NCBI RefSeq assembly: GCF_031312595.1
Contig: NZ_CP133592.1
Coordinates: 1,612,001 to 1,676,000, forward strand
Length of the DNA stretch: 64,000 nucleotides
Origin: Methanolobus sediminis
Lineage (GTDB): Archaea > Halobacteriota > Methanosarcinia > Methanosarcinales > Methanosarcinaceae
Reading direction: 5' to 3'
The number at the start of each line of letters is the position of its first letter. Position 1 is the stretch's first letter. Positions 43,250-53,795 of the stretch are shown piece after piece. The notes under the pieces were generated by a model. That model was not told where the DNA came from, made no database searches, and worked only from the letters and a program-made list of their open reading frames with translations. Position numbers and translations under genes: made by a program.

Positions 43250-43525
43250 TTATTTAATGTAAAGTCCGCACTTGCATGAACCGCGGGTTTCAACATCTCT
43301 TGTCCTTGCAGCGCATGGGCAGATAATCTTCTTATCCTGTTCCTTGTCTCCGGTTCTCTTCTGGCAGAAGCAGTACCATTCACCAAACTCCTTCTTGTTG
43401 TTGCAAATGCCTTTTACAGCAGTTGTAATAACATCCCAGTCAGTGTTGAGTTTGTATCCGGTTGTTTCTGCGTTTTTCTTAGACCTTTCATAAAATTCTG
43501 CTTCTAGATCATTTTCGAATCTCAT
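43250..43525 (-). CDS. Ferredoxin-thioredoxin reductase catalytic-chain-like protein
   Basis: A 91-residue FTR beta-like protein with the Cys pattern of the [4Fe-4S]/disulfide active site: ICNN, YCFCQK, ICPC and SCKCGLYIK near the C-terminus. In methanogens, FTR-like proteins pass electrons from ferredoxin or other donors to thioredoxins. The frame opens at 43555, but the ATG at 43525 has GAGAGTG upstream. It follows fprA and the rubrerythrin gene on the same strand, matching a role in redox stress. Confidence 0.85.
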   Translation of the reverse strand: MRFENDLEAEFYERSKKNAETTGYKLNTDWDVITTAVKGICNNKKEFGEWYCFCQKRTGDKEQDKKIICPCAARTRDVETRGSCKCGLYIK

Positions 43526-43569
43526 AGTAACACTCTCATATGTTGGAATAAACATTCATCTTCATAAAT

Positions 43570-44781
43570 TTAAGAGTTTGCATTGTCTTTTGCAATTTCA
43601 GCAAGTCTGTATCCGATTTCCCGGCAAGCTTTCTTATCTTCTTCATAAGGTCTGAACTTGATTTGCATACTTTCCATAGCAAGCTCAAACTTTGCACTTT
43701 CGATCATCTTTTCCATTCCTTTGACTGCACCGCCTCCCCATCCGTAGGAACCGAACAGGAAGTACTTTTTACTCTTAGGATGCAATCCTGTAAGGTATGT
43801 CAGGAATCCGGCAATAGTAAAGAACATTCCATTATTCATTGTGGGTGAACCTATGGCTACCACCGGTGCATCCATGATTTCCTTCATTGTCATGCTCCAG
43901 TCGTTCTTTCTCAGGTGCCTCAGGCGTACTTCAACTCCTGCAGACCTCGCACCTTCGACAATTTCCATTGCCATTTTTTCAGTGCTTCCCCACATGGTAT
44001 CATAGATGACTATGACCTTGGGGGTAGTTTCACCGTGTGCCCATTTCAGGTATTGTGTCATCACCTTTGAAACATCCCTTCTCCAGATAATTCCGTGTGC
44101 AGGGGCTATCATTTCAGGATATACTTCCAGTTCTTTAAGCTTCTCAATATATTTGAGGACCTGGGAACCAAAAGGCAACAGGATATTGGCATAGTATATG
44201 CCCGCATCTTCCATTACATCATCAACTTCATCATCAAAGCGTTTGGATGTTGCAACATGCTGTCCGAATGCATCATTTGAGAAAAGGAGCTTGTCTTCTT
44301 TCACATAGGTCTGCATGCTGTCAGGCCAGTGAAGCATTGTTGCCTCAATGAACATCAGTGTCCTTTTTCCAAGGCTTAACTCATCACCTGTTTTAACAAC
44401 ATTCAGGTCCCAGTTGTCAAAACCTTCTTCGTTGTAATATTCTGAAAGACCTGTCTGTCCTTTTGATGATGCAAAGACCTTAGCATTTGGTGCTACTTCC
44501 AGAACCGCAGAAATTGAACTGGAGTGGTCCATTTCGACGTGGTTGGATATGATGTAATCTATCTTTGAAGGATCGATTATCTGACTGATACGCTTGATCA
44601 ACTCTCCGGCAAACGGAGCTTTAACCGTGTCAATGAGCGCTATCTTCTCATCGACAACAAGGTATGAATTGTAAGTGCCTCCCTTTGGTGTCTCATATCC
44701 GTGGAAGTCGCGCAGATTCCAGTCAACCACACCTACCCAGTAGATTCCTTTTGTTAATTCAAGTGGTTTGTAATCGTCCAT
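43570..44781 (-). CDS. fprA: F420H2 oxidase, A-type flavoprotein FprA
   Basis: A 403-residue flavodiiron protein that reduces O2 to water with F420H2 in methanogens. The beta-lactamase-like domain has HVEMDHSSS (di-iron ligands, about residues 83-91) and LHWPDSMQTY, and HGIIWR closes the site. The C-terminal flavodoxin domain begins KVIVIYDTMWGSTEKMA (about 254-270) and has SPTMNNGMF. The frame extends upstream to 44847, but the ATG at 44781 has a GAGGAAGG ribosome binding site. The rubrerythrin gene is 19 nt upstream. Confidence 0.95.
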   Translation of the reverse strand: MDDYKPLELTKGIYWVGVVDWNLRDFHGYETPKGGTYNSYLVVDEKIALIDTVKAPFAGELIKRISQIIDPSKIDYIISNHVEMDHSSSISAVLEVAPNAKVFASSKGQTGLSEYYNEEGFDNWDLNVVKTGDELSLGKRTLMFIEATMLHWPDSMQTYVKEDKLLFSNDAFGQHVATSKRFDDEVDDVMEDAGIYYANILLPFGSQVLKYIEKLKELEVYPEMIAPAHGIIWRRDVSKVMTQYLKWAHGETTPKVIVIYDTMWGSTEKMAMEIVEGARSAGVEVRLRHLRKNDWSMTMKEIMDAPVVAIGSPTMNNGMFFTIAGFLTYLTGLHPKSKKYFLFGSYGWGGGAVKGMEKMIESAKFELAMESMQIKFRPYEEDKKACREIGYRLAEIAKDNANS

Positions 44782-44800
44782 TATCCTTCCTCTTACTATT

Positions 44801-45289
44801 TTATGTCTGCATCCTGAACTGGGTTGCATCATCGAGCAGCTCATCAATTATCCTGTAGTGTCCTCTCTCGGCAGCTGCAACCTGTTCAAAGAATACTCTT
44901 TGTTCTTCGCTTTCTGCTCTTTTGGCAAGTTCCATGTAAAAATATTCACTCTTGTGCTCAAATCTGAGGGCTGCGAGAAGTATTCCTATTTCTTCCAGTT
45001 TTTCATCTGAGAATTCTTCACTGAAAGACGCTTCAAACTTTGGATATGTGAATTCCACTTCCGGAATGTTCTTACTTTCCCTGTACTGCTGGAGATATCC
45101 TGCATGCTTTTTTTCTTCATCTGCAAGGAAAATGTACAATTTGCTTGCGGTCGCATTCTTCATAACGGATGCTTTTTCACTGTAATACGCCATTCCCTCT
45201 TCCTCAAGTTCGATGGCAAGAGCAATAGCCTCGTCAAGTGACTTAAGATGGTCAAGCTCATCTGCGATCTCATGTAGTATATCTTTCAT
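44801..45289 (-). CDS. Ferritin-like rubrerythrin-family protein
   Basis: A 162-residue four-helix ferritin-like protein. Di-iron Glu/His motifs occur as ELEEEGMAYYSEKA (about residues 26-39), ADEEKKHAGYL (about 53-63), RFEHKSEYFYMEL and AAAERGHYRII. There is no rubredoxin domain, unlike classical rubrerythrin. Likely reduces peroxide or stores iron. The ATG at 45289 with AAAGGAGATT upstream is preferred over an open extension to 45424. First gene of the rubrerythrin-fprA-FTR set. Confidence 0.88.
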   Translation of the reverse strand: MKDILHEIADELDHLKSLDEAIALAIELEEEGMAYYSEKASVMKNATASKLYIFLADEEKKHAGYLQQYRESKNIPEVEFTYPKFEASFSEEFSDEKLEEIGILLAALRFEHKSEYFYMELAKRAESEEQRVFFEQVAAAERGHYRIIDELLDDATQFRMQT

Positions 45290-45565
45290 TTTAGAATCTC
45301 CTTTAAGAACTGATGTTGCTAAAATACAAATTTGTCGTTCCCTGTCTGAACAAAAATAAAACCCACTGTAGCAAATATTATCTAATTCTGGCTTAATATA
45401 TCTTTCGAGCTTTGTTGCCTGCAATTGCCGGGTTTAGCTAATATTTATATGATATAGGCGACCATTCCATGTTTAGAAAACTTTTTATTTGTGTCAATAC
45501 ATTAATGTGGTTATATTCCATCTGTTATTCATTTTGAACAAGATCACTTTTATAGAGGTAGTTGA

Positions 45566-46669
45566 ATGGACAAAATAAAAATCGCAATTGCTGGTATTGG
45601 CAATTGTGCAAGTTCCCTTATTCAGGGTATTGAATACTACAAAAACAAGAATGAGGAAGATGCAACAGGTTTAATGCACTGGGATCTCGGTGGCTACATG
45701 CCATTCGATATTGATGTGGTCGCTGCTTTTGATGTAGATGAGAGGAAAGTTGGCAAAGATGTCTCAGAAGCAATTTTTGCACCACCTAACTGTACAGCGG
45801 TTTTCTGTCCGGAAATTCCACCCACAGGTACCATTGTAAAAATGGGTAGCATTCTTGATGGCGTATCAGAACATATGGTCGACTATAACGATAACAGGCG
45901 TTTTATTCCTTCTGATGAAGCACAATTTACAAAAGAGCAGGTAGTAAAGGAGTTACAGGATTCCGGCGCAGAGATCTTACTGAACTATATGCCTGTAGGT
46001 TCTGAGGAAGCAACCCGTTTCTATGCGGAATGCGCCCTTGATGCAGGAGTTGCATTCATCAATAATATGCCTGTCTTCATAGTAAGCAATCCAGAGTGGG
46101 CTGCGAAGTTCGAGGAAAAAGGAATCCCTATTATTGGTGATGACATAAAAGCCCAGCTTGGTGCAACAATTACTCACAGAACCCTTGCGGACCTCTTCCG
46201 TAAACGTGGTGTGAAACTGGAACGGACTTACCAGCTTAATACCGGAGGAAACACTGATTTCCTCAATATGCTCAACAGGAACAGACTTGCTTCCAAGAAG
46301 GAATCCAAGACCGAGGCTGTACAGTCAGTAGTTGGCCAGAGAATGGATGATGATAATATCCATGTTGGTCCAAGTGACTATGTTCCATGGCAGAACGATA
46401 ACAAGTTATGCTTCCTGAGAATGGAAGGTAAGCTTTTCGGTGATGTTCCAATGAATATCGAGCTTCGCCTTTCAGTTGAAGATTCCCCTAACTCTGCGGG
46501 AGTTGTCATTGATGCGGTCAGGTGCTGTAAACTTGCGCTTGACAGGGGAATTGGCGGTATCCTTTACTCACCATCTTCATACTTCATGAAGCACCCACCA
46601 AAGCAGTTCACAGATGATGAAGCTCATGCAATGACAGATGCTTTCATCAAAGGTGAGCGCGACAACTGA
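45566..46669 (+). CDS. ino1: Myo-inositol-1-phosphate synthase
   Basis: A 367-residue NAD-dependent enzyme that converts glucose 6-phosphate to inositol 1-phosphate. The N-terminal IAIAGIGNCASSLIQGIEYY is the NAD-binding loop, and GDDIKAQLGATITHRTLADLF and LNTGGNTDFLNML are family hallmarks. In Methanosarcina relatives the product feeds archaetidylinositol lipids. A GAGGT site precedes the ATG, with a TATTTATATGATA promoter-like run about 115 nt upstream. The DUF429 gene starts 13 nt after its stop. Confidence 0.93.
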   Translation: MDKIKIAIAGIGNCASSLIQGIEYYKNKNEEDATGLMHWDLGGYMPFDIDVVAAFDVDERKVGKDVSEAIFAPPNCTAVFCPEIPPTGTIVKMGSILDGVSEHMVDYNDNRRFIPSDEAQFTKEQVVKELQDSGAEILLNYMPVGSEEATRFYAECALDAGVAFINNMPVFIVSNPEWAAKFEEKGIPIIGDDIKAQLGATITHRTLADLFRKRGVKLERTYQLNTGGNTDFLNMLNRNRLASKKESKTEAVQSVVGQRMDDDNIHVGPSDYVPWQNDNKLCFLRMEGKLFGDVPMNIELRLSVEDSPNSAGVVIDAVRCCKLALDRGIGGILYSPSSYFMKHPPKQFTDDEAHAMTDAFIKGERDN

Positions 46670-46682
46670 TCAGGACAAATCT

Positions 46683-47516
46683 ATGGACTTTGCTGCCACT
46701 GGAAAAGAACGCCGTATATTTGGTGTTGATTTCAGTGGTGCAAAAGATGCCTGTAAAAAGATATGGATTAGCAGCGCTAAGCCTGTTGGTAATACTCTGT
46801 ATATAGAGGAGTGTTACAGGCTGGCAGACCGTATAGGTTCTACCGCGAACTCCCGTTCAGGAAGAGATGAATGCTTCTCAGCACTGAGATCATTGATAGT
46901 ACGGGAGATTGATGCTGTTTTTGGAATCGATCTTTCTTTTTCCCTGCCAGAATCTCTCATGGAAGATTCCTGGGAGGGCTTTATTGAATCGTTCTCTTCA
47001 AATTATCCTTCTGCTGAACAGTTCCGTGAGTCCTGTAGGGACAAGGCTGCTGGGAAAGAAATTAAACGTGCATCTGAGATCAGAGCAAAAGTTCCTTTTT
47101 CAGTATATAATCTAAGGCTTTATCGACAGACCTATTTTGGTATAAGGGACGTAATATCTCCTCTAGTAAGGGACAATCTTGCATGTGTACTTCCAATGCA
47201 GGAAGCAAGGGACGGGAAAGCATGGCTCATAGAGATCTGCCCTGCCTGCAGGCTGAAGAAAGAGGATATGTATATTGCATATAAAGGTAAGACTGACGAC
47301 AGGCGCATTGCCCGTTGTCGCATACTTGAATATTTTATGAGCAAAGGCATTGTTATCCCTTCATCGTTACAGGAACTAATTGTGGACGATACGGAAGGTG
47401 ATGCCCTTGACAGCATCATTGCAACGTATTCCACTTTCAGATCGCTCTCCCGGCTGAGTGAGATATCAGACACTTTACCGGAAAATTACACGATAGAAGG
47501 CTACACTTTTTTCTGA
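46683..47516 (+). CDS. DUF429 family protein
   Basis: A 277-residue protein with the DUF429 (predicted RNase H-like fold) N-terminal motif IFGVDFSGAKDACKKIWIS, where the Asp is a probable metal ligand, a middle AVFGIDLSFSLP segment, and a late VDDTEGDALDSIIAT acidic motif. The function is unknown. The frame is open upstream into ino1, but the ATG at 46683 has an AGGA site. Linked in direction to ino1 but with no obvious pathway connection. Confidence 0.85.
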   Translation: MDFAATGKERRIFGVDFSGAKDACKKIWISSAKPVGNTLYIEECYRLADRIGSTANSRSGRDECFSALRSLIVREIDAVFGIDLSFSLPESLMEDSWEGFIESFSSNYPSAEQFRESCRDKAAGKEIKRASEIRAKVPFSVYNLRLYRQTYFGIRDVISPLVRDNLACVLPMQEARDGKAWLIEICPACRLKKEDMYIAYKGKTDDRRIARCRILEYFMSKGIVIPSSLQELIVDDTEGDALDSIIATYSTFRSLSRLSEISDTLPENYTIEGYTFF

Positions 47517-47532
47517 AACATAATCAAAAAAA

Positions 47533-49155
47533 TCATGTTTCAAATCCGCAGTTAGAGTCAACCCACTCCTTTGCTCCGTATATCTGCCTGAGCATTTCAT
47601 CCATGTGTTCTTTTTCGATGAAAGGGCTCATTGGATAGGACTTCAATGCAACTATCGTCCTGCTATTCCTTGTTGTCTTATAGTTGTCAGTATAGGATAT
47701 CATGGCAGTACCTTCTTTTTGCGCCCTGGCAATCATGTACTGTGCTATCCTCTGGTTGTATGAGTTGACCTTCTCTGTGAACTCCTCTTCGGTCTCATCA
47801 CACATCTCTTTCTGAAACAGGGGATTTCCATCAGTATCAAATTTTGTGTGAGGGTAGATACGAAAATCAGTTACAAATGCAGGGTTGTGTCTGTTCAGCA
47901 GTTCAATGTCCGAACAATTATCCATCATTTCTCTCAGGTGGTCAGCAGCAGTTATCAGATGTACTATAAGGGTTTCATATCCCTGTTTTCCCATCAACAT
48001 CATGTTTGCAAGTGCTTTTTGAGCATAATTAGGTCTGCTTGATTCCAGGGTGAATGTCCCTGGCTGGTAGCCTTCCCCGTGGAACAGGTATGGCATATCC
48101 TTTTTCTGCTTCTGCAGAAGTGTAAAATCCTCTCTGTTCTTTATAACAAATGCACTGCACAGGTATGGTGCCCATCCTGTCTTATGGAAGTCTATTCCTA
48201 CCGAATCCGCATATCGCAGGTCGCTTATGCTGGAAAGTATCTCTCTTATCTCCTCCTGCAACATGTGTGGAAGATGATCGATACGTGTGTCTCCCCTGAA
48301 TGTGAGGTATGGCCATCCAATGACCGCATCGGCATGTACATGTATCCTGTAATCTATTTTTTTCTGAATTCTGTCTCGTAATTCCACTATCTTTTTAAGA
48401 GGGTCTATTCCAAAAGCATCTGTTGTACCCATTGTGGCAAATATCGTTCCAATGCGGGCTCCCTCGCTGATAGTCCGTTCCATCTCTTCTTCAAGCAGGT
48501 GAATATCCATTACGTTATCACACGAAGGTATCGTCTTTATGTTGTCCAGTCCGACCCCTGTCCACAGGGCAGCGGATCTGATGCTATAATGGGCAACATC
48601 TGAGCAGAAGAAGTGTATCCTATCCCTTATTCCTGTATTCTTTGCATTCGGGTCGGCCTTTTCGATCCCTATGCGTGCACCATAAAGGTTACAGCCGGTT
48701 CCTCCAAAGGTGAAGATGCCGCCAGCCTTTGTTGTATCATATCCTATAAGGTCGGCAAGCATGGCTATTGCCATTATCTCTGAGCGTGCCGCACTCATTC
48801 CGTAATCATCACTGATGGAATTCTCATTGTATCTTGCACCCAACGCTGCGGCAACAATTGAAAGTGCCGTGGCAGGTGGCACGACGTTCGCCTGCATAAG
48901 AGGATGGCACCATATGTTCACACCTCCATAGAGCTCGGTAATGAAGTCGCCGACATCTGCTTCATTTCCCATCCCATGTGGGAACTTCGTTTCCCTCATA
49001 AGCTTCTCATAATCCAGAGTTTCTTTCTTTCCAATTATCGTGCCGTTCTCTTTACTGTCTATCTTCTTTAGCAGATCATTCAACAGCAGGACTATTTTAT
49101 CCTCATCTCCTGCAGGTCTGGTAAAAAAAGAACGCATAAGCTCAATCTCTTTCAT
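47533..49155 (-). CDS. Group II PLP-dependent decarboxylase-like protein
   Basis: A 540-residue fold-type I PLP enzyme related to glutamate/tyrosine/aromatic amino acid decarboxylases. The PLP Lys lies in SVGIDFHKTGWAPYLCSAF (about residues 315-333), the preceding metal-free HADAVIGWPYL segment holds the PLP Asp, and GGTGCNLYGARIG contacts phosphate. It is longer than archaeal MfnA (about 390 residues), so it is not the standard tyrosine/aspartate decarboxylase. The substrate is unknown. It is the last gene of the redox block, 38 nt after the archaeoflavoprotein gene. Confidence 0.85.
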   Translation of the reverse strand: MKEIELMRSFFTRPAGDEDKIVLLLNDLLKKIDSKENGTIIGKKETLDYEKLMRETKFPHGMGNEADVGDFITELYGGVNIWCHPLMQANVVPPATALSIVAAALGARYNENSISDDYGMSAARSEIMAIAMLADLIGYDTTKAGGIFTFGGTGCNLYGARIGIEKADPNAKNTGIRDRIHFFCSDVAHYSIRSAALWTGVGLDNIKTIPSCDNVMDIHLLEEEMERTISEGARIGTIFATMGTTDAFGIDPLKKIVELRDRIQKKIDYRIHVHADAVIGWPYLTFRGDTRIDHLPHMLQEEIREILSSISDLRYADSVGIDFHKTGWAPYLCSAFVIKNREDFTLLQKQKKDMPYLFHGEGYQPGTFTLESSRPNYAQKALANMMLMGKQGYETLIVHLITAADHLREMMDNCSDIELLNRHNPAFVTDFRIYPHTKFDTDGNPLFQKEMCDETEEEFTEKVNSYNQRIAQYMIARAQKEGTAMISYTDNYKTTRNSRTIVALKSYPMSPFIEKEHMDEMLRQIYGAKEWVDSNCGFET

Positions 49156-49193
49156 ACGTTATTCCACTCCCTGTTTTGTGTGAACTAAATTTA

Positions 49194-49739
49194 TTAATCC
49201 CTGTTCACACCAAGTATGTCATAAAGTTCATCAGGACTATTGATAACTGTAATATTTTCCATCTGGGCAAGTTTCTTTGTATTGGATACGTCAACTTCGC
49301 GCATTTTCAGTTCCATTACACGTCCTTCAGGAGATACTGTTTTGACAGTTCCCATTTCCCTGTCAACTGGCAGTATGTATATCGGTGTGCTTCCTTTTGC
49401 TGTCTGTGAAACAACATTTGTGACAAGGGTATCTCCGATTCCACATACTATTTTTGCAACACTGTTGGAAGTCATCGGGGCGATGATAAGTGCATCATAG
49501 TATCCGACCTGAAGCGGTCCTGCAATAAATGGTGAGTTTGGTCCGCCTTCTGTTTTAAAATTAGGGAAATCCTTCTGGATGTCATCCCACATATGATACC
49601 ATTTCATAACGGTCTCTCCTTCCTTTGAAAGGAAAACCATTATCTGCAGATCGGTCTTGTTCTTGATATCCACCATTGTCTCATATGTTTCTTTGATAAG
49701 GTCTCCTGACCCCGTAATTCCCCATGCTATCCTTTTCAT
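49194..49739 (-). CDS. Archaeoflavoprotein, AfpA/DmrB-like
   Basis: A 181-residue flavoprotein of the AfpA/DmrB group (flavin-binding, Dfp-like Rossmann fold). The N-terminus KRIAWGITGSGDLIKET and the middle YYDALIIAPMTSNSVAKIVCGIGDTLVTN are characteristic. AfpA of Archaeoglobus takes electrons from ferredoxin, whereas DmrB reduces dihydromethanopterin. Linkage here to a ferredoxin and an iron-sulfur flavoprotein favours the AfpA-like electron-transfer role. It lies 22 nt after the FNR-like gene. Confidence 0.88.
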   Translation of the reverse strand: MKRIAWGITGSGDLIKETYETMVDIKNKTDLQIMVFLSKEGETVMKWYHMWDDIQKDFPNFKTEGGPNSPFIAGPLQVGYYDALIIAPMTSNSVAKIVCGIGDTLVTNVVSQTAKGSTPIYILPVDREMGTVKTVSPEGRVMELKMREVDVSNTKKLAQMENITVINSPDELYDILGVNRD

Positions 49740-49761
49740 GATCTGTGCCTTCTGTTTATTT

Positions 49762-50460
49762 TTAGTAACCTATCAGTGATTCTTTGTTGATCTCGCTATC
49801 GGGTATTCTCATAGATTGAAGCAGTTCCACCATTGAATCAACCATGGGTGGTGGTCCGCATACGTAGAATGTTCTTTCATAATAATCCGGTAATTCCCGG
49901 AGTATAAGGTTCTCACAGATGCGCTCCCTGCATCCTGTCCAGCTTTCTGAGGCCCTGGTGAGTGTGTGGAATACATTGAGGTTGGGATTTTGTTTTTTCA
50001 TCTCCTCAAGTTCTTCTGTGAATATCATGTCCTCTTCGGTCTTGTCACTGCATATCAACATGATATCCGTATTAAGTTTCATATCAGTGCAATATTTGCA
50101 AATGCTGATCATTGGTGTGATACCTATGCCACCACTGAGAAGTGCTATCTTTTCGCGTTCCCCTTCAAAGGTAAGTTTGCCAAATGGACCTTTTATCGTC
50201 GCTTTGTCTCCCGGCACCATGGCATCAAGCATGTTTGAGTACTCATGTCCCGTGAGTTTTTTTGTAAATTCAATGTGATCTTTTTCAGTAGGGCTGCTGG
50301 AGAGCGTAAAGGGTTTACCAATTTTCTTCTCTCCGTCTTTTAATGTGATTATCACATATTGTCCGGCTTTGTAATCAAAATCATCCGGTTTCTTGAACCT
50401 GAAACTTTTTACATTGTACGTCCGTTTTATAATCTCTGTAACAGGTTCTTCAAATTCCAG
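49762..50460 (-). CDS. Ferredoxin-NAD(P)H reductase-like flavoprotein with CTG start
   Basis: A 232-residue FAD/NAD-binding reductase without Fe-S domain. The FAD part has FKKPDDFDYKAGQYVIITL and KPFTLSSSPTE (Lys replaces the usual Arg), and the NAD part has LLSGGIGITPMISI and FYVCGPPPMVDSM. The first in-frame GTG (50355) cuts the FAD domain. Homology starts further up, and the only fitting start is CTG at 50460, 7 nt after a perfect AAGGAGG inside the end of the preceding gene. No ATG, GTG or TTG is available between. Confidence 0.85.
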   Translation of the reverse strand: MEFEEPVTEIIKRTYNVKSFRFKKPDDFDYKAGQYVIITLKDGEKKIGKPFTLSSSPTEKDHIEFTKKLTGHEYSNMLDAMVPGDKATIKGPFGKLTFEGEREKIALLSGGIGITPMISICKYCTDMKLNTDIMLICSDKTEEDMIFTEELEEMKKQNPNLNVFHTLTRASESWTGCRERICENLILRELPDYYERTFYVCGPPPMVDSMVELLQSMRIPDSEINKESLIGY

Positions 50461-50462
50461 AC

Positions 50463-51092
50463 TTACTCCTCCTTACGCAGGTCTTTTGTTGCTATGGCCG
50501 TTTTCATGAGTTTATTCATGGTTCTGTGCAGGCTTCTGATTCCTTCCGAATCTTCTGCAGCACCTTCGGCACCTCTGTCCTGTGACCAGAACGTACCGCC
50601 AAGGTTAGATCCGAATGATCCACCTGCAACAGGTATCATTTCACTGATGACGTAAAAATTGAGAATATTCTGTATTGCAGGTTCCTGTCCGCCTATCCTG
50701 TCTCCACCAACAGCAGCGGCAGCTCCAACTTTGTTCATAAAGGACTTTGGATCACGCGCAACAACTGCACGGCACCTGTCCATAATAGTTTTAGTCTGGG
50801 CACTTAGAGTACCCTGGTATACTGGAGTGCCAATTATCCATGCGTCTGCCCAGAGCATTTTATCGTAGAGTTCCACAAGGTCATCTTTGTGAATACAGCC
50901 TTCTTTCTTACGGACACAATAATCACAGTGGATGCAGAATTTCATCTCTTTGCCGCGGGCAGAGAAATATTCTACTTCAGCACCATATTTTTCCTGCGCG
51001 AATCTGAGAGCTTCATTTACAACATAATCTGTGGACTTCCTCCTGGGGCTTCCTGAGATGCCCAGCAGGCGAATGCTTCTGTCTTCTGACAT
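50463..51092 (-). CDS. Iron-sulfur flavoprotein (Isf family)
   Basis: A 209-residue flavodoxin-like reductase. The N-terminal LLGISGSPRRKSTDYVV binds FMN phosphate. The compact cluster motif CIHCDYCVRKKEGC (about residues 53-66) is the Isf-type [4Fe-4S] site, and GTPVYQGTLSAQTKTIMDR follows. Isf of Methanosarcina thermophila accepts electrons from ferredoxin and reduces O2 or peroxide. It lies 19 nt downstream of the ferredoxin gene, and its 3' end carries the ribosome binding site for the FNR-like gene. Confidence 0.92.
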   Translation of the reverse strand: MSEDRSIRLLGISGSPRRKSTDYVVNEALRFAQEKYGAEVEYFSARGKEMKFCIHCDYCVRKKEGCIHKDDLVELYDKMLWADAWIIGTPVYQGTLSAQTKTIMDRCRAVVARDPKSFMNKVGAAAAVGGDRIGGQEPAIQNILNFYVISEMIPVAGGSFGSNLGGTFWSQDRGAEGAAEDSEGIRSLHRTMNKLMKTAIATKDLRKEE

Positions 51093-51111
51093 GGTAGCAC
51101 TCCGTTTTTGT

Positions 51112-51303
51112 TTATTCCAGTGTTATTGCTTCCTGTGGGCAGGCATCAACACAGTTACCGCATTCCACACAGTCGTCAGGACGTGCAATGACGGATTTTA
51201 AATCTCCGTTTGCGTCTTCCTGTACTTCAATAACGTCTGTCGGGCATGCCTGAGCGCAGGCTCCTATTCCTTCACATTTAGCTAAATCTACTTCTGGTGG
51301 CAT
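51112..51303 (-). CDS. Two-cluster ferredoxin with altered first site
   Basis: A 63-residue ferredoxin. The second site is complete (CVECGNCVDACP, about residues 45-56). The first reads CEGIGACAQACP (about 10-21): the second Cys of CxxCxxCxxxCP is Ile, leaving three Cys residues. A [3Fe-4S] cluster or a labile fourth iron is expected there. It probably links the iron-sulfur flavoprotein, FNR-like protein and archaeoflavoprotein encoded next to it. It lies 13 nt after the cytochrome gene. Confidence 0.92.
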   Translation of the reverse strand: MPPEVDLAKCEGIGACAQACPTDVIEVQEDANGDLKSVIARPDDCVECGNCVDACPQEAITLE

Positions 51304-51316
51304 TATTTTTCCTCCA

Positions 51317-52738
51317 TTATTTTCTTTTTAAGATATACATCGTAATTCCAAGAACCATTGCAGCAGTAAGTGCACTAAACCCTGGAGTGCTTGTACTGCC
51401 TGATTCTGGCTGGTTTCTTTCATCTGCAGGTGTTGATGGATCATAAATGATTGCAGAGATTTCGTTCATGTCAACAACCGGAACCCCTGTTTCTTCTCCA
51501 AGGAGCTTATCGATCATATCCTGCGGAGCTGACCTGTATTTCAGGGTGCTCTGTACTGTAAGAGGGTATGCTGCATTTTCAGGCATAACAAATGAGTGCT
51601 CTTCTGTTACAGTTTCCTTTGGACCGATCCTGTTATCTTCAAGAACACTTTCTGCAAGCCAGAAACTCTTTGTTTCCTTCCCTTCAATATCTGCCAGAAC
51701 GTTGTTGTATAACACTTTTGCGTCTATGATGTTCCCATCAGCATCGACACTTCCGGCGTTGTAAATAATATCCCCGTTTGCATCAGTGACCGTAAGTTCC
51801 AGCCACATCTCTCTTATTTCAGAAACTCCAGTGGGGATCTTGTGTCCGGCACCGGAGTTTGTGATGGATAAATCAATAAGAATTTCATCTCCTGCAGATG
51901 CAGTCTCTGGTGCCGATATATCCATTATAGTGGCTTTTTGCAGCCTTTCAACTGCCATGTCAGCTACGTTCTCAGCACCAAACATTGGTGGTATCAGGGT
52001 GTTGGCACCCACAATATCATGTAAGGGAATATGATCTCTTTTAGGAGCACCTGACCCGGCACGTCCGGGATTTGCCTTGAACTGCGTGATACCTTCTGTC
52101 ATGTGACAGTCCTGACATACGACATTCTCTTCAGCATACTGGCTGTCTTTCCATGTTGAATATGTATCGTCAATAACAAGCCCGTTAACAGGGTTGATTA
52201 CCTGATGGCACATTCCACAGTATTCTGACTGAGTAAAAAGTTCAAGGTATTCGGACTCATGGTAGTTCCCTCTTGCATCATCGAATGGTCCCCATTTCGT
52301 ATTTCCAGGGGTCACTGTGAATTGTGCATTTCCTGTACCATTACTTCCGGATACTACGTGACAGAAATCACACTGTACTCCGAGTTTGGCAATATCGGAC
52401 ATTTCAGAACCATCTATTGGTGGTATTTCACCACTGACAACTCCTATGGGTGTGTGACAACGTGAGCAGAACTCGTCCAGTGAGCCATTTGTGTCTTCAC
52501 TTGCTATCTTTACCTCTTCAAGATAGAACGGATCAAGGTATGCATTAAAGTGCATAGTTCCTTCCCATTCGGCATAAATTATAGCATGGCATTGCCTGCA
52601 TTTACTTTCATAGGCAAAATCGTCCGAGCTGTATTCGCCAGCTTGTGTTGCCGGTGTTGCAGTTGCAACGCTACCTGTGCTAAGTAGTAAAAGCATTGCT
52701 GCCAAGACCAGGCCAAGCTTTACAACGGTTCCCCTCAT
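51317..52738 (-). CDS. Surface-anchored pentaheme cytochrome c with PGF-CTERM-like tail
   Basis: A 473-residue exported protein. It has a Sec signal peptide (about residues 1-28) and five CxxCH haem sites (47-51, 91-95, 123-127, 174-178 and 208-212), with further His residues as possible distal ligands, in a cytochrome c-554-like N-terminal half. A beta-sandwich-like region spans about 265-430. The C-terminus has a Ser/Thr/Pro linker, PGFSALTA (about 452-459), a membrane helix and a KRK end, like archaeosortase-processed PGF-CTERM proteins. Placed with ferredoxin and flavoproteins, it may carry electrons to the cell surface. It is not the heptaheme MmcA. Confidence 0.9.
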   Translation of the reverse strand: MRGTVVKLGLVLAAMLLLLSTGSVATATPATQAGEYSSDDFAYESKCRQCHAIIYAEWEGTMHFNAYLDPFYLEEVKIASEDTNGSLDEFCSRCHTPIGVVSGEIPPIDGSEMSDIAKLGVQCDFCHVVSGSNGTGNAQFTVTPGNTKWGPFDDARGNYHESEYLELFTQSEYCGMCHQVINPVNGLVIDDTYSTWKDSQYAEENVVCQDCHMTEGITQFKANPGRAGSGAPKRDHIPLHDIVGANTLIPPMFGAENVADMAVERLQKATIMDISAPETASAGDEILIDLSITNSGAGHKIPTGVSEIREMWLELTVTDANGDIIYNAGSVDADGNIIDAKVLYNNVLADIEGKETKSFWLAESVLEDNRIGPKETVTEEHSFVMPENAAYPLTVQSTLKYRSAPQDMIDKLLGEETGVPVVDMNEISAIIYDPSTPADERNQPESGSTSTPGFSALTAAMVLGITMYILKRK

Positions 52739-52780: not shown

Positions 52781-52804
52781 ACACCGGTTTACCCAAACCG
52801 GTGT
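52781..52804. repeat. Perfect 10-bp hairpin before the cytochrome gene
   Basis: ACACCGGTTT-ACCC-AAACCGGTGT lies 43-66 nt upstream of the cytochrome start. It has no T-tract after it on the minus strand. It could be an operator or an mRNA stability element. Confidence 0.5.
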
Positions 52805-52851: not shown

Positions 52852-53220
52852 TTATTTAAGCTGTTTTAGTGCATCTCTGCATGCGGCAACAGCAGGAGCT
52901 CCGGATGTGATGAAAATGACGTCCATTACTTCCATGATCTCTTCCTTTGTTGCGCCGTTCTTCAGTGCACTCTTCATCTGTGACACAACACAGCGTTCAC
53001 ACTGTTTTGATGCAACTACGGCAAGTGCCATAAGTATCTTTGTCTTTGCAGGGAGTGCCCCATCTTTAAGCAATTTGTGATTACACATGTTATATTTGTG
53101 TACAAATTCAGGTTCAAGTTCCCCCAATGTTTCTAATATCTGTGGTGTGAATCCCAGCTTGTCGGACATATCATCGATGATATCTCTGTGTCCGCATCCT
53201 TTACCTTGTTCTCCGCACAT
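52852..53220 (-). CDS. Carboxymuconolactone decarboxylase / AhpD-like protein
   Basis: A 122-residue helical protein of the CMD/AhpD family. The redox motif [13 protein letters not shown] (about residues 74-86) with its CxxC and following helix is the peroxidase-type active site, preceded by [15 protein letters not shown]. An N-terminal Cys/His segment ([12 protein letters not shown]) is an addition that might bind metal. A disulfide-reducing or peroxide-protective role is likely. It is third in the unit behind two DUF2180 genes. Confidence 0.88.
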
Positions 53221-53268: not shown

Positions 53269-53487
53269 TTAGTCGAATCCATCTTCAATTGTCCGGTCAA
53301 AACAGTATTTACAAAGAATTCTTGGCAGTCCCTTTGGAAGCCTCTGTACGTTAGGTGGCTGTCCAACGGATACCGGAAGTTCAAGTTCCTTGCAGTGATC
53401 GCTACAGAGGCCTTTTCCGCAGGCAATGCAGATGCATGTTGCTTCTGTATCGTCTCCATCTTCCATGCAGTCATAACATTTCATCAT
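53269..53487 (-). CDS. DUF2180 zinc-binding protein, copy 2
   Basis: A 72-residue Cys-rich protein of the archaeal DUF2180 type: KCYDCMEDG, CICIACGKGLCSDHC and CKYCF provide Cys/His zinc ligands resembling a B-box or treble clef. The function is unknown. It lies 8 nt after a related gene, and the pair probably arose by duplication. AGGTGAT precedes the ATG pair. Confidence 0.8.
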   Translation of the reverse strand: MMKCYDCMEDGDDTEATCICIACGKGLCSDHCKELELPVSVGQPPNVQRLPKGLPRILCKYCFDRTIEDGFD

Positions 53488-53495
53488 GATATCAC

Positions 53496-53735
53496 CTAGT
53501 AGTTCTCCTTCATGGCTTCATGGCATGGCATACAGAGCACTTTCTTCCAGTGCTGTATGTCCTTGTAGTCACAGGAAATTCCCATTCCACATTTCAGCTT
53601 AATGCTGTATTCACCCTCCCATACAGGTGTTTCTTCTCTTACAAGGTGGTCCTTGCAAACTCCTCTCCCGCAGATTATGCAGACAGCAACGGTGTCACTA
53701 TCTTTTCCATTTTTTGCACATTCAAAGCATTTCAT
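53496..53735 (-). CDS. DUF2180 zinc-binding protein, copy 1
   Basis: A 79-residue paralogue of the next gene: KCFECAKNGKDSDTVAVC, IICGRGVCKDHL and a C-terminal CMPCHEAM motif. The frame opens three codons earlier (53744), but ATG at 53735 aligns with the family start MKC. It is the first gene of the minus-strand unit, located just downstream of a perfect palindrome and a TATA box, so it defines the operon start. Confidence 0.8.
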   Translation of the reverse strand: MKCFECAKNGKDSDTVAVCIICGRGVCKDHLVREETPVWEGEYSIKLKCGMGISCDYKDIQHWKKVLCMPCHEAMKENY

Positions 53736-53795
53736 GACGATCACTCTGTCAATATGTTGTTTGTTCGCAAATGTTTCCGTTCATCATTTCTGCAG

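Follow-up and report, generated by a model that had tools for sequence, protein, structure and literature searches.

The window analysed here, 64,000 nucleotides of the Methanolobus sediminis genome (2.80 Mb; contig NZ_CP133592.1, positions 1,612,001 to 1,676,000), carries at 47533-52738 a block of six minus-strand genes, one of which encodes an exported pentahaem cytochrome c. We think that this block probably belongs to a cluster that defends the Methanosarcinaceae against oxidative stress, in which the cytochrome would be the extracytoplasmic arm, and that it is the Methanolobus version of the MA4664/MA3734-3743 cluster of Methanosarcina acetivorans. An association of the cluster and its cytochrome with oxidative stress is in our judgement very likely, while direct reduction or scavenging of O2 or reactive oxygen species (ROS) as the chemical role of the cytochrome is a tentative suggestion, somewhat more apt to fail than to hold. 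MA3739, the M. acetivorans counterpart of the cytochrome, and its relatives have so far been regarded as additional candidates for a role in extracellular electron transfer (EET) in methanogens. To our knowledge, the linkage of this cytochrome with ROS genes across archaeal lineages and a few bacteria is new, as is its placement in the c552 fold, and neither was found in our literature search.

The six genes are separated by gaps of only 13, 19, 5, 22 and 38 bp. Their coordinates and identities in the first-pass annotation were reproduced, with Pfam and NCBIfam giving Cytochrome_C554, ferredoxin, FMN_red/Isf, FAD/NAD reductase, AfpA and Pyridoxal_deC. Stretches of about 20 kb around the cytochrome homologue were taken from 60 Methanosarcinaceae genomes, the genes of the source locus and of the M. 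acetivorans-like locus were mapped on them, and the neighbourhood counts refer to the 53 loci that had sufficient flanking sequence. Two DUF2180 genes and the genes for a CMD/AhpD-family protein, Isf and AfpA accompany the cytochrome on the same strand in all 53. Less constant neighbours are rubrerythrin (46/53), the flavodiiron protein FprA (44/53), an FNR-like reductase (40/53), the ferredoxin (28/53, a figure in which this short gene may be under-counted), superoxide reductase (SOR; 16/53) and the pyridoxal phosphate (PLP)-dependent decarboxylase, which stands at the same site in 3/53. The conserved unit is DUF2180-DUF2180-CMD (MdrA-like)-cytochrome-Isf-AfpA, then usually rubrerythrin and FprA. 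In the Methanolobus locus it reaches upstream to CMD and the two DUF2180 genes and, past two opposite-strand genes after AfpA, to rubrerythrin and FprA at 43570-45289, so that the edges first drawn around the six genes were wrong. The proposal that the set would be conserved together holds for the cytochrome, Isf and AfpA; SOR, the ferredoxin and the FNR-like reductase are optional, and the PLP decarboxylase was rejected as a member of the unit because of its rarity at this site. Reading of the sequences, not by profile, placed a rubrerythrin-like gene between FNR and AfpA in Methanococcoides-like loci.

The Methanolobus cytochrome (51317..52738, minus strand, 473 aa) appears to be the orthologue of MA3739, because the two are 47% identical over their length and share the order DUF2180-DUF2180-CMD-cytochrome-Isf-AfpA. 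Genome G086, which we take to be M. acetivorans, has the order DUF2180-DUF2180-CMD-SOR-cytochrome-Isf-AfpA-rubrerythrin-FprA. Both cytochromes have five haems and both clusters go on to rubrerythrin and FprA, whereas the Methanolobus locus has an inserted ferredoxin and FNR and a terminal PLP decarboxylase, its rubrerythrin-FprA pair is set apart by the two opposite-strand genes, and its SOR lies elsewhere (near G000:C1:2160000). This only SOR gene of the source genome (L211:6486-7807, equal to G000:C1:2159985-2161306) adjoins ferritin-like and DsrE-like genes, distant from the cytochrome cluster. On the authority of Lessner and Ferry (2007), PMC3729527 describes MA4664/MA3734-3743 as an operon, still putative, for proteins of oxidative stress.

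All further genes of the unit in Methanolobus are also on the minus strand. The two DUF2180 proteins are b (53496..53744; cysteine-rich and zinc-finger-like; PF09947, E 2e-23) and a (53269..53487; PF09947, E 1e-20). The CMD/AhpD-family protein (52852..53220; PF02627, E 7e-19) carries a CXXC motif (CERC), and with both features present it is placed by sequence among the MdrA-type proteins as a putative disulfide reductase and orthologue of MdrA/MA3736. MdrA has disulfide reductase activity. The Isf-type iron-sulfur flavoprotein (50463..51092) combines the FMN_red fold (PF03358, E 3e-32) with the compact cysteine motif CIHCDYCVRKKEGC, which as CX2CX2CX6C falls within the Isf pattern CX2CX2CX4-7C; Isf reportedly reduces O2 and H2O2, a finding attributed to Cruz and Ferry in 2006. 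The archaeoflavoprotein AfpA (49194..49739) scored 260.5 bits with TIGR02699, against a cut-off of 192.45. The rubrerythrin-family protein (44801..45289; PF02915, E 1e-9) and the FprA-type flavodiiron protein (43570..44781; PF19583 ODP and PF00258 flavodoxin) were given starts inside the open reading frames (ORFs) 44801-45424 and 43570-44847, respectively. A homologue of the ferredoxin:thioredoxin reductase catalytic chain follows FprA directly on the same strand (43250-43555), and a similar gene stands after FprA in locus L118.

In the favoured reading, Isf, AfpA, the MdrA-like protein, rubrerythrin, FprA and, in some genera, SOR would clear O2 and ROS from the cytoplasm and repair thiols there, drawing electrons from ferredoxin, NAD(P)H or F420H2; in Methanolobus the local ferredoxin and FNR probably feed these enzymes. 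The exported and anchored cytochrome most likely draws its electrons from the membrane carrier pool, and would deliver them at the cell surface to O2, superoxide or peroxide, or serve as an electron buffer for the same end. We infer both this donor and the absence of a direct feed from the cytoplasmic flavoproteins; the block has no membrane-crossing carrier by which ferredoxin or NAD(P)H could supply the cytochrome. Such an arrangement would offer strict anaerobes a way to meet oxidants before they enter the cell.

As first proposed, the cytochrome is exported and anchored by sequence criteria: it begins with a hydrophobic segment and ends in TPGF, a hydrophobic transmembrane stretch and a basic KRK tail; in the structure model a C-terminal helix covers residues 456-472. 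Exactly five CXXCH motifs occur in 60/60 cytochrome sequences, that of M. sediminis included. Beyond these motifs four histidines are invariant in the 60, one is found in 59/60 and one in 56/60, and PG[FILV] is present near the C-terminus in 59/60, as PGF in 51/60. The five-CXXCH pattern is not a product of chance, since the 60 sequences keep it together with the extra histidines, and 59 of them with PG[FILV]. The source genome encodes archaeosortase A (TIGR04125, 256 bits), and by its features the cytochrome is a predicted PGF-CTERM/archaeosortase A substrate, with processing likewise predicted; the Pfam PGF-CTERM profile gave no match to it at E 0.1. Among named cytochromes, that of Methanolobus vulcani is the closest (92%).

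The AlphaFold model, folded without haem, has a mean pLDDT of 67.7 and low confidence in the haem domain. Over 308 residues, within residues 52-431, Foldseek matched it to the pentahaem cytochrome c552 of Thermochromatium tepidum (PDB 5ZE8), with an E-value of 4e-12 and a Z-score of 19.2; other structural matches were far below and covered only the Ig-like domain. The profile match to the c552 family had E 2e-16. With five CXXCH haems followed by a C-terminal Ig-like domain, the cytochrome is a member of the pentahaem cytochrome (PHC) family, which holds Geobacter ExtKL and the sPHC and lPHC of cable bacteria and with which c552 has been grouped (PMC11976967). It differs from these proteins by its identity of about 20% and its PGF-type C-terminal membrane anchor, and its genes adjoin ROS-defence enzymes whereas those of ExtKL adjoin porins or a bc complex (PMC5877670). 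Some PHC-family cytochromes are fused to a truncated haemoglobin and have been proposed as periplasmic O2 reductases (PMC11976967).

MmcA (MA0658) of M. acetivorans is likewise an exported, Ccm-dependent multihaem cytochrome c of a methanogen. It has seven haems, belongs to a family related to octahaem tetrathionate reductase and has a proven role in EET (PMC11024163, PMC6703419), whereas the Methanolobus protein has five haems and matches another fold family. An MmcA-like or octahaem tetrathionate reductase-like identity was rejected, as five haems are neither seven nor eight and the best structure and profile matches are to the c552 family. The source genome encodes a second exported multihaem cytochrome (L210:4830-6128, equal to G000:C1:80829-82127), with eight CXXCH, a PGF-CTERM profile match and a partial Cytochrom_C552 match, which by its sequence resembles an octahaem reductase.

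Outside the Methanosarcinaceae, a profile scan of genome contigs found relatives of the cytochrome in the ANME-1 archaea, Methanolliviera, Methanoperedens and several bacterial phyla. In ANME-1 locus L171 the order is FUR-EncFtn/Rbr-like-cytochrome-SOR-catalase-peroxiredoxin-flavodoxin-FprA, and the related L168 contains ferritin. The ANME-1/Methanolliviera clusters (L168, L171, L172, L178) resemble the Methanolobus one in that an orthologous cytochrome adjoins SOR, FprA and rubrerythrin-like genes, and differ from it in their additional catalase, peroxiredoxin, ferritin and FUR regulator and in gene order. All six SOR genes of four ANME-1/Methanolliviera genomes adjoin a cytochrome homologue. 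A divergent FprA gene is present in all four Methanoperedens loci, and FprA then ferritin in L159. Among bacteria, planctomycete locus L202 has rubrerythrin and SOR, Aquicultor has rubrerythrin, and L193 has FUR and rubrerythrin. This linkage to SOR, FprA, catalase, peroxiredoxin, ferritin and Fur-type regulators makes oxygen tolerance the first thing to test. Immediately upstream of the cytochrome, one ANME-1 locus encodes a NapC/NirT-type membrane cytochrome, a plausible membrane donor. Loci L168, L174 and L177, in one Methanolliviera assembly, are three cytochrome-SOR-FprA clusters, either paralogues or mixed strains.

A wider generalisation would make the cytochrome a terminal O2, superoxide or peroxide reductase of strictly anaerobic archaea, a shield outside the cell that is fed by methanophenazine or quinone, pairs with cytoplasmic SOR, rubrerythrin and FprA, and is common to methanogens, ANME-1, Methanolliviera, Methanoperedens and some bacteria; we regard this as speculative and rather doubtful. 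The idea that the cytochrome reduces a co-exported SOR was dropped, as no obvious signal peptide stands at the start of the SOR sequences read at the loci of M. acetivorans and ANME-1.

A rival explanation gives the cytochrome another substrate. In that case the protein would be a general extracytoplasmic carrier or reductase for a sulfur, selenium or nitrogen oxyanion, co-regulated with stress genes only because its substrate arises under oxidising conditions. ExtKL has been named as a candidate for selenite reduction (PMC5877670), T. tepidum c552 has been suggested to act in sulfur metabolism (PMC11976967), and our cytochrome has weak NrfH/NapC similarity. TusA-, DsrE-, IscS- and IscU-like genes, read from the sequence and not by profile, lie between cytochrome and ferredoxin in one genus, and TusA/DsrE-like genes, which some clusters contain, would suit such a role. 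No conserved reductase partner or transporter for a substrate of this kind accompanies the cytochrome, however, and its constant company is SOR, rubrerythrin, FprA, Isf and catalase, so we consider this explanation unlikely.

The distribution of the cytochrome shows that it can be lost while the cluster stays. Two genomes of the source genus (G072 and G085) keep CMD, ferredoxin, Isf, FNR and AfpA, with only a C-terminal remnant of the cytochrome; this corresponds to about residues 358-470 of the Methanolobus protein joined to a signal-like segment, and every haem site is gone. Three further genomes (G013, G020, G046) have no cytochrome within the cluster, and Methanosarcina-like genomes without the cytochrome c maturation (Ccm) system retain Isf-AfpA-rubrerythrin. 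The cytochrome as an obligatory partner of the flavoproteins was therefore rejected, as clusters without it keep them. It occurs in 0/22 genomes without CcmE against 68/79 genomes where CcmE was found, and in the 22 genomes of a Methanosarcina-like genus cytochrome and SOR are both present in 8 and both absent in 14. A place in oxidant defence would be one possible reason why some strict anaerobes retain haem-maturation genes. Losses of the cytochrome without the remaining cluster in several genomes, and its loss following that of Ccm in others, would also be expected of a passenger gene, one whose place in the cluster is a matter of history and which has no functional link with oxidative stress. 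The same cytochrome nevertheless adjoins ROS genes in separate lineages whose gene orders differ, and is kept in most genomes that have CcmE, and we judge a mere passenger very improbable.

In the first-pass annotation the block was seen as a conduit that joins the cell surface to the pool of ferredoxin or NAD(P)H. Electrons would leave this pool by way of FNR, Isf and AfpA, cross the membrane to the cytochrome and go on to external acceptors, or would be received by the cytochrome in direct interspecies electron transfer (DIET). The cytochrome is indeed exported, anchored and multihaem, and its fold family includes ExtKL, for which a part in EET is proposed, and has been described as a relation of the archaeal nanowire AvECN (PMC11976967). 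Transcripts of MA3739, a five-haem cytochrome, were 4.1-fold up with anthraquinone-2,6-disulfonate (AQDS) (PMC6703419) and up in DIET (PMC8546582), and MA3739 was up 80% in a delta-mmcA strain (PMC11024163). On the other side, no multi-helix membrane protein or membrane cytochrome that could cross the membrane was found among the conserved genes of the unit, the flavoproteins persist where the cytochrome is gone, and its neighbours across lineages are ROS-defence enzymes. Deletion of MA3739 left AQDS reduction unaffected (stated in PMC8546582), as it did electron uptake from Fe(0) and Fe(0)-dependent methane formation (PMC10989991), and uptake from G. metallireducens did not require any of the cytochromes in that study (PMC10989991). 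The conduit is thus not supported; surface electron export is possible but disfavoured, and a module built for it seems to us improbable.

The oxidative-stress reading has its own difficulties. Besides the response of MA3739 transcripts to AQDS and DIET, the redox regulator MsvR did not bind the tested upstream regions in M. acetivorans (PMC3729527). Our literature search found no published O2 or ROS phenotype test of MA3739, nor expression or phenotype data under air or peroxide for the genes of the cluster. The co-occurrence counts took genomes singly, with no correction for kinship, and in 8 of 12 bacterial homologue loci the stretch read contained no gene recognised as ROS-related, several of these stretches being short. 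Five to six extra histidines are conserved against five haems, in a haem domain modelled at low confidence, and all five haems may be bis-His ligated, which would leave no open catalytic site and make the cytochrome an electron-transfer protein.

The remaining features of the locus are optional members, neighbours and short repeats, all on the minus strand unless stated. The optional ferredoxin (51112..51303; PF00037/PF12838) is of the 2x[4Fe-4S] type. The FNR-like FAD/NAD(P) reductase (49762..50457; PF00970, PF00175), also optional, starts upstream of its mechanical ORF, at 50457, apparently with CTG after GGAGG, because the FAD-domain match extends upstream of the mechanical start and CTG is common to several relatives. 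This CTG is kept in several close relatives, and others have TTG or ATG.

Between CMD and cytochrome lies a perfect 10-bp inverted repeat with a 4-base loop, ACACCGGTTT-GGGT-AAACCGGTGT (52781..52804), a possible terminator or operator. A conserved operator was rejected here, as the sequence varies and hairpins of another sequence occupy this place in other species, only the hairpin tendency being kept. Directly after the CMD stop there is a small hairpin and then T's.

The PLP-dependent decarboxylase (47533..49155; PF00282, E 3e-29) is a neighbour only. The opposite-strand gene next to it (46638-47516) comes in two diverged versions, of about 45% and of 70-84% identity, that occupy the same site, and 3 of the 4 close versions accompany the PLP decarboxylase, a pattern that suggests replacement by transfer.

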